DNA from: Sphingorhabdus lacus
GTDB taxonomy: Bacteria; Pseudomonadota; Alphaproteobacteria; Sphingomonadales; Sphingomonadaceae
Reading direction: 5' to 3'
Length of the DNA stretch: 64,000 nt
Assembly: GCF_009768975.1 (NCBI RefSeq)
Contig: NZ_CP035733.1
Coordinates: 248,001 to 312,000, forward strand
Shown here: one piece after another, positions 49,405 to 54,791 of the stretch
Position numbering within the stretch: the stretch's first letter is position 1
How the letters are laid out: the number at the start of each line of letters is the position of its first letter
Notes under the pieces: model-generated
Seen by the model: the letters and a program-made list of their open reading frames with translations, nothing else
Database searches by the model: none
What the model was told of the DNA's origin: nothing
Translations under genes and position numbers: made by a program

Positions 49405-50778
49405 TCATCTGTATAAATGCCTCTGTGCGCTCTCCAGGTCGTCCACAAATAGCGCCCGCTCCCTTTCTGCCGCCTCGGCGTCGGGTAGGCGCAGCAAATA
49501 GCTGGGGTGGATGGTAACCAGAACCGGCACACCTTCCAAGCTTTCGAAGACCTGACCGCGGCTGGCGGTGATGGGTAAAGACCGCCCGGTCAGACTGCGC
49601 GCTGCCGTGGCGCCAAGCGCCACAATCAGTTCTGGCTTCACCAGCTCGATTTCGCGTTTCAACCACCAGCGGCAATGGTTGATTTCGCCGACATTGGGCC
49701 GCTCGTGGATGCGCCTTTTGCCTTCGGGCCGGAATTTGAAATGTTTAACCGCGTTGGTCACATAGCTCTGGTTCCGATCCACGCCGGCCTGTGCCAGCGC
49801 TGCATCTAATATCTGCCCTGCAGGGCCCACAAAAGGTCGTCCGGCGCGATCTTCCTGATCACCGGGCTGTTCGCCGACAAACATCAGCCAGGCATCGGCC
49901 GGGCCTTCGCCAAAGACCAATTGAGTGGCAGGGCCATAGAGCGGGCAGCGGCGGCAGCGGTCGGCTTCGGCGCGTAGTGTGGTGAGTGTATCGGCGACCA
50001 TGGGCAGGATATCCTTTTCGATCATTGCCAACTCCCGGTTGCGCGCCGACTGGATTAGCTCGGTCACCAGCGCCGTTTCCGGCATGTTGTGCCAATATTT
50101 CTTGGGCATCTCCTTCAGCATGGCGTTTACCTTGAGCCGGGCTGGGTTGAAGATGGAGCCGTAGTAGGTCTTCCACTGTTCTTCGACGCTATCTTCGGTC
50201 GGGGCGTCGGTTTTTAACTTGGCTGACGCTTCGAGCAGTGTTTGGCGGTCCCAGTGGATCGTCAGGCTGGGGGTCAGGATTGACCATTTCATGCCGGCAA
50301 AGCGGCGGACGAAGAAGGCGGCGTTGGTGCGGACGATGTGGTGTTCGGGTTCGAACCAGGCCACGAAATGCTCCTCGCCCCCGGCCTCCTCGACGCGGCG
50401 GAACCGCAGAAAAGCACGCATTTTGTGGATATCGCGCCGGACATTCTTCGCCATCATCTCCAGCTTGCGGAGCAGGGGGTCGGCCTCGTCCCCCATGTGC
50501 CGCTGCCGCGCCTTCAGGTCGATCAGCAACTGGTAGAGCAGTCCAAAACGCTCCGGGTCCGAATGGCAGATGACCGACCGCGCCAGCTCGGCAAAGCCCT
50601 TGGGCACGCCAATGGGCGCCGCTTCCAGACAGGCCTCCGGGCTCGCAAACAGGTCGGTGCGCTGCTCGCCTACCTGCCAGACCACGTCCGCCGGCCGCGC
50701 ACCGAGCCGCATCAGCCCGCGGCACTGGTTGCGCCAACCGTCAAAATCATCCTCCGCCGCAATCCGTGCGGTAATCAT
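49405..50778 (-). CDS. DUF4130-UdgX fusion: uracil-DNA crosslinking glycosylase-family protein
   Basis: 457 residues in two parts. Residues 1 to about 255 are a DUF4130 domain (LLRKLEMMAKNVRRDIHKMRAF, then HWDRQTLLEASAKLKTD). Residues about 270-457 are a family-4-like uracil-DNA glycosylase of the UdgX type: iron-sulfur cysteines C275, C278 and C369, motif GEQPGDQEDRAG, TNAVKHFKF, and the insertion GKRRIHERP with His358 at the position that in Mycobacterium UdgX bonds covalently to deoxyribose of the excised uracil site, and HPSYLLR at the end. The start overlaps the radical SAM stop by ATGA. Second gene of a likely SOS operon. Confidence 0.93.
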   Translation of the reverse strand: MITARIAAEDDFDGWRNQCRGLMRLGARPADVVWQVGEQRTDLFASPEACLEAAPIGVPKGFAELARSVICHSDPERFGLLYQLLIDLKARQRHMGDEADPLLRKLEMMAKNVRRDIHKMRAFLRFRRVEEAGGEEHFVAWFEPEHHIVRTNAAFFVRRFAGMKWSILTPSLTIHWDRQTLLEASAKLKTDAPTEDSVEEQWKTYYGSIFNPARLKVNAMLKEMPKKYWHNMPETALVTELIQSARNRELAMIEKDILPMVADTLTTLRAEADRCRRCPLYGPATQLVFGEGPADAWLMFVGEQPGDQEDRAGRPFVGPAGQILDAALAQAGVDRNQSYVTNAVKHFKFRPEGKRRIHERPNVGEINHCRWWLKREIELVKPELIVALGATAARSLTGRSLPITASRGQVFESLEGVPVLVTIHPSYLLRLPDAEAAERERALFVDDLESAQRHLYR

Positions 50779-52016
50779 GCGAACAGCTCCAACTGCTCCG
50801 TCTTGGGGGCAACGCTGGCGCGCAAATGTTCAAGATCGGTAAGCGCCCCCGGCGTCCAGCCATCCGCAATCAGGAAAGGCCGGATTTTCGCGATCGACAC
50901 CGTCAACCGCCCCACATCCTCCAGCCGCAGCCTCCGCCAGCGGCGCGCCTTCAGGATCGCCTTCACTGCCTTCGTCCCGAGCCCCGGCACCCGCCACAGC
51001 ATCTCCTTCGGCGCGCGGTTGACGTCGACCGGGAACTGCCCGCGATGCTTCAGCGCCCAGGCAAGCTTCGGATCGATATCAAGCGGCAACATGCCATCGG
51101 CTTGCGCCGCATCGACGACCTCTTGCGGGGCAAAACCATAAAAACGCATCAGCCAGTCCGACTGGTACAGCCGGTGTTCGCGCATCAGCGGCGGGCGTTG
51201 CAGGGGCAGGACCGCGCTCGCGTCGGGGATTGGGCTGAATGCCGAATAATAGACGCGGCGCAGGCCGAAGCGGTCGTACAACCCGTTGGCGCGGCGGACG
51301 ATATCGCTGTCGGTCGCGGCGTCAGCCCCGACGATCATCTGCGTCGATTGACCGGCTGGGGCAAAGTTCGGCGCGCTGCGGTATTTCTTCTTGGCATCGC
51401 GGCCATCTAGGATCGACGTCTTCAACCCGCCCATTGCCCCTTCGATGCGCTCCTCGGACTTTTCGGGGGCAAGGCGGTTCAGCCCTTCGCGCGTCGGCAA
51501 TTCCACATTGATCGACAGACGGTCGGCATGCCGCCCCGCCGCCTCCAGAAATTCGGGGTCGGCATCTGGAATGGTCTTCAAATGGATATAGCCGCGAAAG
51601 TCATGATCCTCCCGCAAGCTGCGCGCGACTTCGACAATCTGCTCCATCGTATAGTTGGAGCTTTTGATGATCCCCGACGAAAGAAACAGCCCTTCGATAT
51701 AATTGCGCTTATAAAAGTTGAGCGTGAGGTCGACGACTTCCTTGGGTGTGAAGCGTGCGCGGCGGACGTTGGAGCTTTTGCGGTTGATGCAATAATGGCA
51801 GTCGAAGATGCAGCTGTTGGTCAGCAAAATCTTCAGCAGCGATATGCACCGCCCGTCGGGGGCATAGGCATGGCAGATGCCCATGCCTTCGGTCGATCCG
51901 ATCCCGCCCGATTTGGAGCTGGACCGTTTTACGGTTCCTGAAGAGGCGCAGGACGCGTCATATTTGGCGGCATCCGCCAAGATGGCGAGCTTCTCGGTCA
52001 CTTGTAATTGGGTCAT
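50775..52016 (-). CDS. Radical SAM DNA-repair-type protein linked to UdgX, with C-terminal HhH domain
   Basis: 413 residues. Radical SAM cluster site CIFDCHYC (C69-x3-C73-x2-C76), then LFLSSGIIKSSNYTMEQIVEV and the rest of a TIM-barrel core. The C-terminal part VNRAPKEMLWRVPGLGTKAVKAIL is a helix-hairpin-helix that should bind DNA. The family (rSAM linked to UDG) is known only from its neighbourhood to the DUF4130-UdgX gene; its reaction is unproven. ATG at 52016 starts MTQLQVTEKLAILADAAKYD, the family start; the LexA box lies two bases before it. Confidence 0.93.
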   Translation of the reverse strand: MTQLQVTEKLAILADAAKYDASCASSGTVKRSSSKSGGIGSTEGMGICHAYAPDGRCISLLKILLTNSCIFDCHYCINRKSSNVRRARFTPKEVVDLTLNFYKRNYIEGLFLSSGIIKSSNYTMEQIVEVARSLREDHDFRGYIHLKTIPDADPEFLEAAGRHADRLSINVELPTREGLNRLAPEKSEERIEGAMGGLKTSILDGRDAKKKYRSAPNFAPAGQSTQMIVGADAATDSDIVRRANGLYDRFGLRRVYYSAFSPIPDASAVLPLQRPPLMREHRLYQSDWLMRFYGFAPQEVVDAAQADGMLPLDIDPKLAWALKHRGQFPVDVNRAPKEMLWRVPGLGTKAVKAILKARRWRRLRLEDVGRLTVSIAKIRPFLIADGWTPGALTDLEHLRASVAPKTEQLELFA

Positions 52017-52051: not shown

Positions 52052-52284
52052 TACCCCATGTATGAAAGTGCGGCAGAACGCGCATTTGGGGAGGAATGCA
52101 TAAGGGAAAAAGCGGTGTTGCGGATTTGCCGGAACCAAGGTGAACCTTCCGGGCTTTTGTCGGTTTGATTTCCACCCACCCGCCACCATATGATCATTAG
52201 AAAAAGGAACGCCCGATCCCCCGCACCGCCGCCCAGCACTGGATAGAACCGCACCCGCACGGCATCTTCGTTCGCCCTGCCGAC

Positions 52285-53223
52285 ATGTGGATTGACCCGT
52301 CGCAGGCGGTGGAGCGCGCTCTTGTGACGCACGGCCATGCCGACCATGCGCGCAGCGGCCATGGCACGGTCTGGGCTACGCCGGAAACGCTAGCCATCAT
52401 GGCGCTGCGCTACGGCACTGAAATGGGAACGCCCGTGCCCTATGGCGATGGGTTTGAGGCCAATGGCGTAAAGATTAGCTTCCATCCCGCCGGTCATGTG
52501 CTGGGTTCGGCGCAGATCCTGCTCGAACATGCAGGCGAACGCGTCATTGTCACGGGTGACTATAAGCGACGGCATGACCCGACTTGCGCGGCCTTTGAAC
52601 CTGTCGCCTGCGATGTGCTAATTACCGAAGCAACATTTGGTCTGCCGGTGTTCAACCATCCGCCGATCGAAGACGAAATCCGAAAGCTGCTCGATGCCCG
52701 CGACGCCCATCTGGATGGCTGCGTTGTCGTGGGGGCCTATGCCTTGGGCAAGGCGCAACGGGTCATCGCCGAACTTCGACGGGCGGGATATGACGCACCC
52801 GTCTATATTCATGGCGCGATGCAGAAAATGTGCGACCTGTATGAGGCGCATGGCGTGCCTTTGGGCGAGCTGATCCCCGCCACGGGTTTGGCCAAGGGCG
52901 AATTGCGGGGCGGAATCGTGGTGGCCCCGCCATCCGCGCTGAACGACCGCTGGGCGCGCCGTCTGCCCGAACCTGTGACCGCCATGGCGTCGGGCTGGAT
53001 GCGTGTGCGCCAGCGCGCGCGGCAACGTAATGTCGAGTTGCCGCTGGTGATTTCCGACCATGCCGACTGGAACGAACTGACGGAGACCTTGCTCGAACTG
53101 CGGCCTTCCGAAACATGGATCACCCATGGCCGGACCGATGCGCTGGGCCGTTGGTGCGAACTGCACCAGTTAAAGGCGCACGCGCTCGATCTGGTCGGGC
53201 GCGAAGATGAGGATGAAGGCTGA
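52285..53223 (+). CDS. Ligase-associated DNA exonuclease (metallo-beta-lactamase, beta-CASP)
   Basis: 312 residues from the first standard start (ATG 52285), but the family N-terminus, here HWIEPHPHGIFVRPADM, is encoded upstream in the same frame back to about 52216, where only ATC or ATA codons are available before the TAG at 52198. The metal motif is THGHADHARSG; GVKISFHPAGHVLGSAQI, VTGDYKRRHDP, and ITHGRTDALGRWC follow. It should trim DNA ends together with the ligase. An ATG at 52190 with AAAAA just after it is one base out of frame; a one-base gain in that A-run would restore a full N-terminus. The stop overlaps the ligase ATG by one base. Confidence 0.88.
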   Translation: MWIDPSQAVERALVTHGHADHARSGHGTVWATPETLAIMALRYGTEMGTPVPYGDGFEANGVKISFHPAGHVLGSAQILLEHAGERVIVTGDYKRRHDPTCAAFEPVACDVLITEATFGLPVFNHPPIEDEIRKLLDARDAHLDGCVVVGAYALGKAQRVIAELRRAGYDAPVYIHGAMQKMCDLYEAHGVPLGELIPATGLAKGELRGGIVVAPPSALNDRWARRLPEPVTAMASGWMRVRQRARQRNVELPLVISDHADWNELTETLLELRPSETWITHGRTDALGRWCELHQLKAHALDLVGREDEDEG

Positions 53224-54791
53224 TGCAGGCCTTTGCCGCCCTTGTCGATGCGCTGGTCTATACCCGTTCGCGCGATGCGAAAATCCGCCTGATTGCCGAT
53301 TATCTGCGCGTCACCCCTGATCCTGACCGCGGCTGGGCCTTGGCTGCACTGGCCGGTACCTTGAGCATCGCGACCGTCAAAGCCTCGGCTATTCGCGCGA
53401 TGGCCGAAGAACGGTTCGACCCGCTCCTGTTCCGGATGAGCCGCGACTATGTGGGCGATACCGCCGAGACCGTAGCGTTGATGTGGCCCGACAATCCCGC
53501 TCGCGCTGCACCGCCCAGCGTGGCCGAGGTCATCGACCTGCTCAATGCCACCAGCCGTGCGCGCGCGCCTTCCGTGCTGGCGGACTTGATGGACAGGCTG
53601 GATGCTGACGGACGTTATGCGCTGTTGAAACTCGCCACTGGCGCGATGCGCGTGGGCATCTCCGCGCGTCTCGCCAAGACGGCCTTTGCGCAAGGATTTG
53701 GCCTGTCGGTCGATGATGTCGAGGAGGTCTGGCACGCCCTCCGTCCGCCTTATGCCGAGCTCTTTGCCTGGGGCGAGGGGCGCGAAGACCGGCCCAATCT
53801 CGCGGACAGCGCATTTTTCCGGCCCTTCATGCTGGCGCATCCGCTGGACGACGGGATTGTCGACCTTTCCGAATTTGCCGCCGAATGGAAATGGGACGGC
53901 ATCCGCATCCAGATCGCCGCTACCGGCGGGGAAACCCGTTTGTTCAGTCGGGGTGGGGACGAAGTGACGGCGGCCTTTCCCGAAATTGCGGCCGCCTTTA
54001 CCGGCCTTGGCGTGGTCGATGGCGAATTGCTGGTCCGCGGCGATGTCCAAGGCGGGGAGGCCGCAAGCTTCAACGCTTTGCAACAGCGGCTGGGACGAAA
54101 GACCGTAACTGCCGCCATGCAGGCCGAATATCCGGTCTTTGTCCGCCTCTACGACATATTGTTCGACGGCACCGAGGATATGCGCGCCCTTGGCTGGACC
54201 CAGCGGCGCGACCGGCTGGAACGCTTTGTAGCAGGGCTGGACCCAGTGCGCTTTGACCTGTCCGCGCTGATCGAGGCGCGCGATTTCGACCATCTTGCCG
54301 AACTGCGCGGTGCAGCGCGCGAGGCGGCGATTGAAGGCGTGATGCTGAAACGGCGGGATGCGCCCTATCTCGCGGGCCGCAAGGTCGGCCTCTGGTATAA
54401 ATGGAAGCGCGAACCTTTGGTCGCCGATTGCGTGATGATGTACGCCCAACGCGGCAGCGGCAAGCGCTCCTCCTATTATTCCGACTATACCTTTGGCTGT
54501 TGGGGCGAGGATGGGACTTTGTTACCGGTCGGCAAGGCTTATTCGGGATTCAGCGATACGGAGCTGAAATGGCTGGACCGTTTCGTGCGGACAAATACCA
54601 TCGCCCGTTTTGGCCCGGTGCGTGAGGTTGAGAAATCCCTGGTGCTGGAGGTTGCCTTTGACGCGGTGCATGAATCGAAGCGGCATAAGTCCGGTATCGC
54701 GATGCGCTTTCCTCGGATTTCCCGATTGCGGCGTGATAAACCGGCGGAAGAGGCGGATAAGGTTGCGACGTTGAAGGCGATGATTGGGTGA
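53223..54791 (+). CDS. ATP-dependent DNA ligase of the exonuclease-associated type
   Basis: 522 residues. A helical N-terminal DNA-binding domain (about 1-190), then the nucleotidyltransferase domain with motif I EWKWDGIRIQ (the adenylated Lys), motif III VFVRLYDILF, motif IV AIEGVMLKRRD, and motif V GLWYKWKRE; a C-terminal OB-fold follows (about 410-520, ending SRLRRDKPAEEADKV). It seals nicks with ATP; the replicative ligase of bacteria uses NAD. Overlaps the exonuclease stop by one base (TGATG), so they are made together. Confidence 0.95.
   Translation: MQAFAALVDALVYTRSRDAKIRLIADYLRVTPDPDRGWALAALAGTLSIATVKASAIRAMAEERFDPLLFRMSRDYVGDTAETVALMWPDNPARAAPPSVAEVIDLLNATSRARAPSVLADLMDRLDADGRYALLKLATGAMRVGISARLAKTAFAQGFGLSVDDVEEVWHALRPPYAELFAWGEGREDRPNLADSAFFRPFMLAHPLDDGIVDLSEFAAEWKWDGIRIQIAATGGETRLFSRGGDEVTAAFPEIAAAFTGLGVVDGELLVRGDVQGGEAASFNALQQRLGRKTVTAAMQAEYPVFVRLYDILFDGTEDMRALGWTQRRDRLERFVAGLDPVRFDLSALIEARDFDHLAELRGAAREAAIEGVMLKRRDAPYLAGRKVGLWYKWKREPLVADCVMMYAQRGSGKRSSYYSDYTFGCWGEDGTLLPVGKAYSGFSDTELKWLDRFVRTNTIARFGPVREVEKSLVLEVAFDAVHESKRHKSGIAMRFPRISRLRRDKPAEEADKVATLKAMIG

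Follow-up and report, generated by a model that had tools for sequence, protein, structure and literature searches.

A conserved AUC/AUU codon as the probable start of a ligase-associated DNA exonuclease gene in Sphingorhabdus lacus

Introduction

At which codon does translation of the ligase-associated DNA exonuclease of Sphingorhabdus lacus begin? In the stretch of 64,000 nucleotides analysed here (the window), no ATG, GTG or TTG was present in the exonuclease frame ahead of the conserved N-terminus. The initial annotation had pointed out that this N-terminus lacked an ordinary start codon, and the elements that it had named (the TAG, the five A residues, AAGGA, the ATC, the ATA and the ATG at 52285) were all recovered as described. 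To our knowledge, dependence on AUC or AUU for initiation is known from few bacterial genes, and infC is the textbook gene with a start of this type. A literature search of titles and abstracts retrieved no article that addressed how translation of the TIGR04122 exonuclease starts.

Identity and genomic context

The gene lies between a divergent gene and a ligase gene, as follows.

50775–52016, minus strand: divergent radical SAM repair-linked gene (TIGR03916; 568.6 bits, cut-off 343.5), whose 5′ end marks one edge of the intergenic region shared with the exonuclease
52216–53223, plus strand: ligase-associated DNA exonuclease (TIGR04122) with an MBL/beta-CASP fold, 335 codons and a stop codon, as supported by the profile, the clade open reading frames and the structure model
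53223–54791, plus strand: ATP-dependent DNA ligase (TIGR04120; 757.1 bits, cut-off 400)

The exonuclease frame (52201–53220) scored 448.2 bits against TIGR04122 (cut-off 325) and covered positions 1–325 of the 326 in the profile. Its THGHADHA motif was unchanged throughout a 21-sequence alignment and matched HxHxDH, the metal-binding motif of MBL proteins. The structure model (mean pLDDT 81.6, with block means of 88–91 for residues 11–30) matched CPSF73, TTHA0252 and RNase J in a Foldseek search, and a sequence search of solved structures returned distant MBL relatives only. The profile score, the motif and the TIGR04120 neighbour all fit the TIGR04122 identity, and the product is predicted to act as a DNA exonuclease. 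The start of the radical SAM gene was provisionally put near ATG 52016, because in the longest frame the first residue matched by TIGR03916 is number 59.

The start of the ligase gene overlapped the exonuclease stop codon, as TGATG in 24 of the 25 clade copies introduced below and as TAATG in the remaining one (L025). Translation of the ligase is likely coupled to that of the exonuclease through this overlap. The genome is a single contig of 3.46 Mb, in which the ligase-associated helicase (1074.6 bits) and phosphoesterase (217.3 bits) were found close together near 2.63 Mb (G000:C1:2627700-2634215; L187, L189). The distance from these partners to the exonuclease–ligase pair is approximately 2.3 Mb, and the pair should therefore be transcribed separately from them. 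The helicase partner of the ligase-associated set is dealt with in the accessible part of PMC7437997.

Start region and putative promoter

Upstream of the conserved N-terminus, the following elements were located.

52198–52200, plus strand: in-frame stop codon TAG just upstream of the exonuclease; a stop at that distance (codon −6) occurs in 8 of the 25 clade copies
52204–52208, plus strand: Shine–Dalgarno sequence AAGGA, 7 nt ahead of ATC 52216
52216–52218, plus strand: proposed start codon ATC, predicted to be read as fMet, on the basis of ATC/ATT conservation and of coding constraint that starts there
52285–52287, plus strand: first ordinary ATG, an internal Met at codon 24 counted from the ATC, with no AAGGA-type Shine–Dalgarno sequence before it

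Behind the TAG the sequence reads AAA AAG GAA CGC CCG ATC, and the run of five A residues occupies 52201–52205. The spacing of about 8 bases between AAGGA and ATC 52216 given in the initial annotation was close to the measured 7 nt. Its statement that ATC 52216 and ATA 52243 are the sole in-frame candidates was right in that both are present; ATC 52264, the Ile codon of ‘GIF’, was missing from its list. The ATA at 52243 and the ATC at 52264 both lie within the conserved stretch. The ATG at 52190 does not share the reading frame of the exonuclease gene and falls within a promoter-like pair of elements.

52164–52169, plus strand: −35-like hexamer TTTGAT, separated by 17 nt from the −10-like box, recognized from its sequence only
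52187–52192, plus strand: −10-like box CATATG, which contains ATG 52190; transcription is predicted to start at approximately 52199–52201

The arrangement of TTTACA (20 copies) or TTTGAT (3 copies), 17 nt and CATAY occupied the corresponding position in 23 of the 25 clade copies and was absent there in L023 and L025. A promoter scan reported an overlapping register, TTGATT-18-TATGAT (one found, against a mean of 0.2 in shuffled sequences). Since ATG 52190 lies within the promoter-like −10 box, with the predicted transcription start downstream of it, this ATG is probably not transcribed. The leader RNA from the predicted start was less structured than shuffled sequences (z of +1.99 and +2.28), with 198 and 200 of 200 shuffles folding at least as well. 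The Shine–Dalgarno sequence should therefore be open.

Conservation of the start codon

An exonuclease match was found in 28 of 45 genomes of the genus, and 17 had no match. Intact close copies from 25 species, including the genome under study, were taken as the clade set (L002–L026). The 24 relatives shared 86–97% identity with the exonuclease protein of the window, and the 25 formed a compact group. Three genomes were left out: G018 (L027) for a copy of 72% identity with an ATG start, G008 (L029) for a match of 28% identity that was not an orthologue, and G017 (L028/L030) for a gene split over two frames. The two pieces in G017 (G017:C39:27205-28172) could be the result of decay or of assembly errors. 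Ahead of the first piece there seems to be an N-terminus led by an ATG, set apart from it by another change of frame.

Opposite ATC 52216 in the alignment stood ATC in 22 and ATT in 3 of the 25 copies, the A and T being invariant, and the open reading frame from this codon was 335 codons long in every copy. Initiation at the ATC behind AAGGA had been one of the options in the initial annotation, and the agreement on ATC or ATT among all 25 species speaks for it. AAGGA stood 7–8 nt ahead of the codon in 24 copies; the exception, L025, had AGGAG 6 nt ahead and a different leader that contained no A-run, yet it kept the ATC. Two patterns for the 3′ end of the 16S rRNA (the anti-Shine–Dalgarno sequence) were searched in the genome under study and gave no match.

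Ordinary start codons were scarce upstream of the conserved codon. Ten of the 25 copies had no ATG, GTG or TTG between the nearest in-frame stop upstream and the ATC/ATT. Within the 18 nt before it, these codons were missing in frame from 23 copies and in any frame from 22. The two in-frame exceptions were the sister species L018 and L022, in which codon −2 is an ATG that could serve as a start, although it follows AAGGA by no more than 2 nt. The gain of this ATG, near the Shine–Dalgarno sequence and ahead of the conserved ATC, could be a return to an ordinary start. In L009, codon −8 was a TTG, which lies shortly before the point at which transcription is predicted to begin. Apart from the ATG at codon −2 of L018 and L022, the other upstream ordinary starts in the relatives were also rejected as lying upstream of the predicted transcription start; the prediction covers the copies other than L025, whose leader differs.

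Outside the clade, 101 other loci were collected, of which 5 were duplicates and 6 were missed by the motif (L028–L031, L063 and L105). All 90 scorable distinct loci started ordinarily before the conserved Trp, with ATG in 87, GTG in 2 and TTG in 1. The distance from start to conserved tryptophan was within 10 codons in 89 loci and 19 codons in one.

Onset of coding constraint

Among the 25 clade copies, pN/pS was 0.095 for codons 1–22, 0.073 for codons 23–45 and 0.088 for the rest of the gene. The leader codons read in the same frame gave 0.80 (last 5) and 0.89 (last 22). On a tree built from the exonuclease gene after codon 24 (length 2.4 substitutions per site), parsimony changes at the three codon positions numbered 12/8/58 in codons 1–22 versus 98/95/94 in the 66 nt upstream. 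Given this pattern of constraint, the ribosome should read codons 1–22, and AUC/AUU is the sole plausible start for them in most of the species.

At the start codon itself, bases 1 and 2 showed no change on the tree, and the third base showed one. Each of the 13 internal codons with Ile in every one of the 25 copies underwent 2–5 changes versus this single change, a slowness that is only partly telling, as at most one change was also seen at 11 of the 94 fourfold and 17 of the 71 twofold conserved codons. Likewise, G was absent in all 25 copies at 14 of 94 conserved fourfold codons as well.

The window was also surveyed with pN/pS for other genes of this kind. From 56 frames, 16 nested ones were set aside, leaving 40 non-nested frames evolving as coding. 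Nine of the 40 were testable (at least 16 aligned codon pairs before the first ordinary start), and only the exonuclease was constrained there, with an upstream ratio of 0.3 that includes the leader codons. Nine nested frames were flagged too and were taken as shadows of the genes that they overlap. A first version of the survey had been swamped by antisense frames.

Alternative readings of the start

Codon 24 was ATG in all 25 clade copies, and Met was found there in none of 91 other loci scored. The best anti-Shine–Dalgarno match before ATG 52285 was none in the window and 3–4 nt in the relatives, and an AAGGA-type sequence preceded Met24 in none of the 25 copies. The structure model placed two predicted strands (residues 10–13 and 16–19) ahead of Met24. 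The gene might serve twice, yielding the full-length protein by initiation at ATC/ATT and a minor short form by initiation at Met24, and the confinement of Met24 to the group that has the AUC/AUU start would suit such dual use. The same missing Shine–Dalgarno sequence, and the loss of both predicted strands from the short form, argue against it, and we consider it improbable. That one group shares Met24 and AUC/AUU is a coincidence, which could hint at a second, short product.

It is less probable still that the protein truly starts at ATG 52285 (MWIDP), with the preceding sequence as an untranslated leader or relic. Such a start would use the first ordinary start codon and would account for a Met in 25 of 25 clade copies versus 0 of 91 others. 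Against it, the preceding 22 codons show the evolution of protein-coding sequence (pN/pS 0.095; 12/8/58), approximately 15 positions at the beginning of the TIGR04122 profile would be dropped along with the two strands, and the ATG has no Shine–Dalgarno sequence before it. A close homologue starting at MWIDP, which the initial annotation had put forward as evidence against its own view, was not found, and the stretch before MWIDP proved to be under protein-level constraint.

The initial annotation had further suggested that a sixth A would join the frame to ATG 52190. This suggestion failed, as the run comprised 1–5 A residues in the 25 species (four in 17 of them) and never six. The two closest relatives, both with 97% protein identity, had five (L003) and three (L004), and L004 had CATATA in place of the CATATG of the window and hence no ATG there. 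A sequencing error or recent frameshift that removed an A, with ATG 52190 as the real start, would fit the position of that ATG, one base out of frame and just before the five A residues; the run lengths, the missing ATG in L004, the position of ATG 52190 in the promoter-like −10 box and the agreement of 25 genomes on ATC/ATT leave this explanation a negligible chance. A-runs can slip, and this general tendency would favour an event at the run, either −1 frameshifting by the ribosome or slippage during transcription, that joins an upstream start to the exonuclease, an explanation that we dismiss as equally remote in view of the short run (1–5 A residues), the 22 of 25 copies with no ATG, GTG or TTG in any frame of the predicted leader (18 nt) and the same ATC in L025, which has no A-run.

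Proposed mode of initiation

The assignment of ATC 52216 as the exonuclease start is a strong one, made by comparing sequences. For the main reading, in which the gene begins at ATC 52216 with a fixed AUC/AUU codon behind a Shine–Dalgarno sequence and weak, IF3-sensitive initiation is the likely effect, we estimate a probability of roughly 0.87. The promoter just upstream would give a messenger with a leader of approximately 15–17 nt, reckoned from the predicted transcription start, that holds little beyond the Shine–Dalgarno sequence. This sequence would put the ATC in the ribosomal P site, where the initiator tRNA would decode it as fMet although the third base is mismatched. Within the clade the AUC/AUU codon has been retained, most simply since the common ancestor. 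Such a codon would probably keep initiation weak and open to rejection by IF3. Little nuclease would then be made and, owing to the overlap of its stop codon with the start of the ligase gene, perhaps little ligase too. By analogy with known systems, the exonuclease is probably made sparingly and inversely to IF3 activity; for actual control by IF3 we see about even odds.

Possible reasons for a weak start are that it limits a dangerous enzyme or that it wires the nuclease to IF3. The weak start held over 25 species, set against the family copies with ATG, GTG or TTG, offers a natural comparison for why it was selected. Start rules that admit only ATG, GTG and TTG would trim 23 residues, including the two predicted strands, from the exonuclease.

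Comparison with known non-canonical starts

The locus shows the marks of a conserved AUH start, namely no ordinary start in frame within the preceding 18 nt in 23 of 25 copies, a fixed codon, a boundary of constraint and a Shine–Dalgarno gap of 6–8 nt in 25 of 25. From sequence comparison, the exonuclease appears to join a known set of genes with conserved non-canonical starts: infC, sigR, rnhC, cvfC1 and ccpN. In the accessible text of PMC4611024, AUC and AUU are described as ‘non-canonical’ starts that are discriminated against by IF3. The exonuclease resembles infC in having an AUH start behind a Shine–Dalgarno sequence, fixed across many species. In contrast, infC encodes the discriminating factor itself (autoregulation), whereas the product here is a DNA nuclease, and the trait of the exonuclease was limited to one species group among the copies read.

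According to the accessible portion of PMC5472188, the GTC start of Streptomyces sigR is conserved over the genus (GTC in 32 and GTT in 2 of 34) and IF3 represses sigR. As there described, sigR shares with the exonuclease a genus-wide non-canonical start, a strong Shine–Dalgarno sequence and the position of first gene in a translationally coupled pair. The two differ in codon, protein and phylum, and the IF3 effect, proven for sigR in that portion of the article, is deduced for the exonuclease. The ATC start of Listeria monocytogenes rnhC is reported as experimentally confirmed in the accessible section of PMC13068326. This gene likewise has a fixed ATC start and encodes a nuclease (RNase H by name), but of another family, and its start is confirmed by experiment as far as that section goes, whereas the start of the exonuclease was assigned by sequence comparison.

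In Staphylococcus aureus, cvfC1 (AUU) and ccpN (AUA) gave approximately 10% of the output of AUG in poor medium, and ccpN gave up to 30% in rich medium (PMC13009471, accessible part). As presented in that part, these are also conserved AUH starts carried by strong Shine–Dalgarno sequences; theirs are extended, however, whereas the exonuclease has AAGGA with a spacing of 7–8 nt and a presumed rather than recorded output. The window gene shares its profile score, catalytic motif and neighbour gene with the TIGR04122 genes beside TIGR04120. It differs from them in its start, as the other copies read use ATG, GTG or TTG (90/90 scored), and in the helicase and phosphoesterase of its own genome being approximately 2.3 Mb away.

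infC in the same genus

Forty-three genomes of the genus had an infC match, and 30 of these loci were read (L112–L141; that of the genome under study is G000:C1:2804795-2805289, L129). ATC stood at the equivalent place in all 30 and was taken as the infC start because of the behaviour of infC known from the accessible part of PMC5472188. In the 29 loci parsed, GGAG was found 8 nt before the ATC, within AAGGAG (22), CAGGAG (6) or ACGGAG (1). The exonuclease with its coupled ligase, which has AUC behind a comparable Shine–Dalgarno sequence, may tentatively be proposed as a second transcription unit besides infC that IF3 governs in the genus, although we lean against this proposal. If IF3 governs these two DNA end-processing genes, the supply of their products would rise when the fidelity of initiation relaxes, for example under ribosome stress, and repair capacity would be coupled to the condition of the translation apparatus. 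As a minor observation, codon 9 or 10 was an ATG in many infC loci of the genus.
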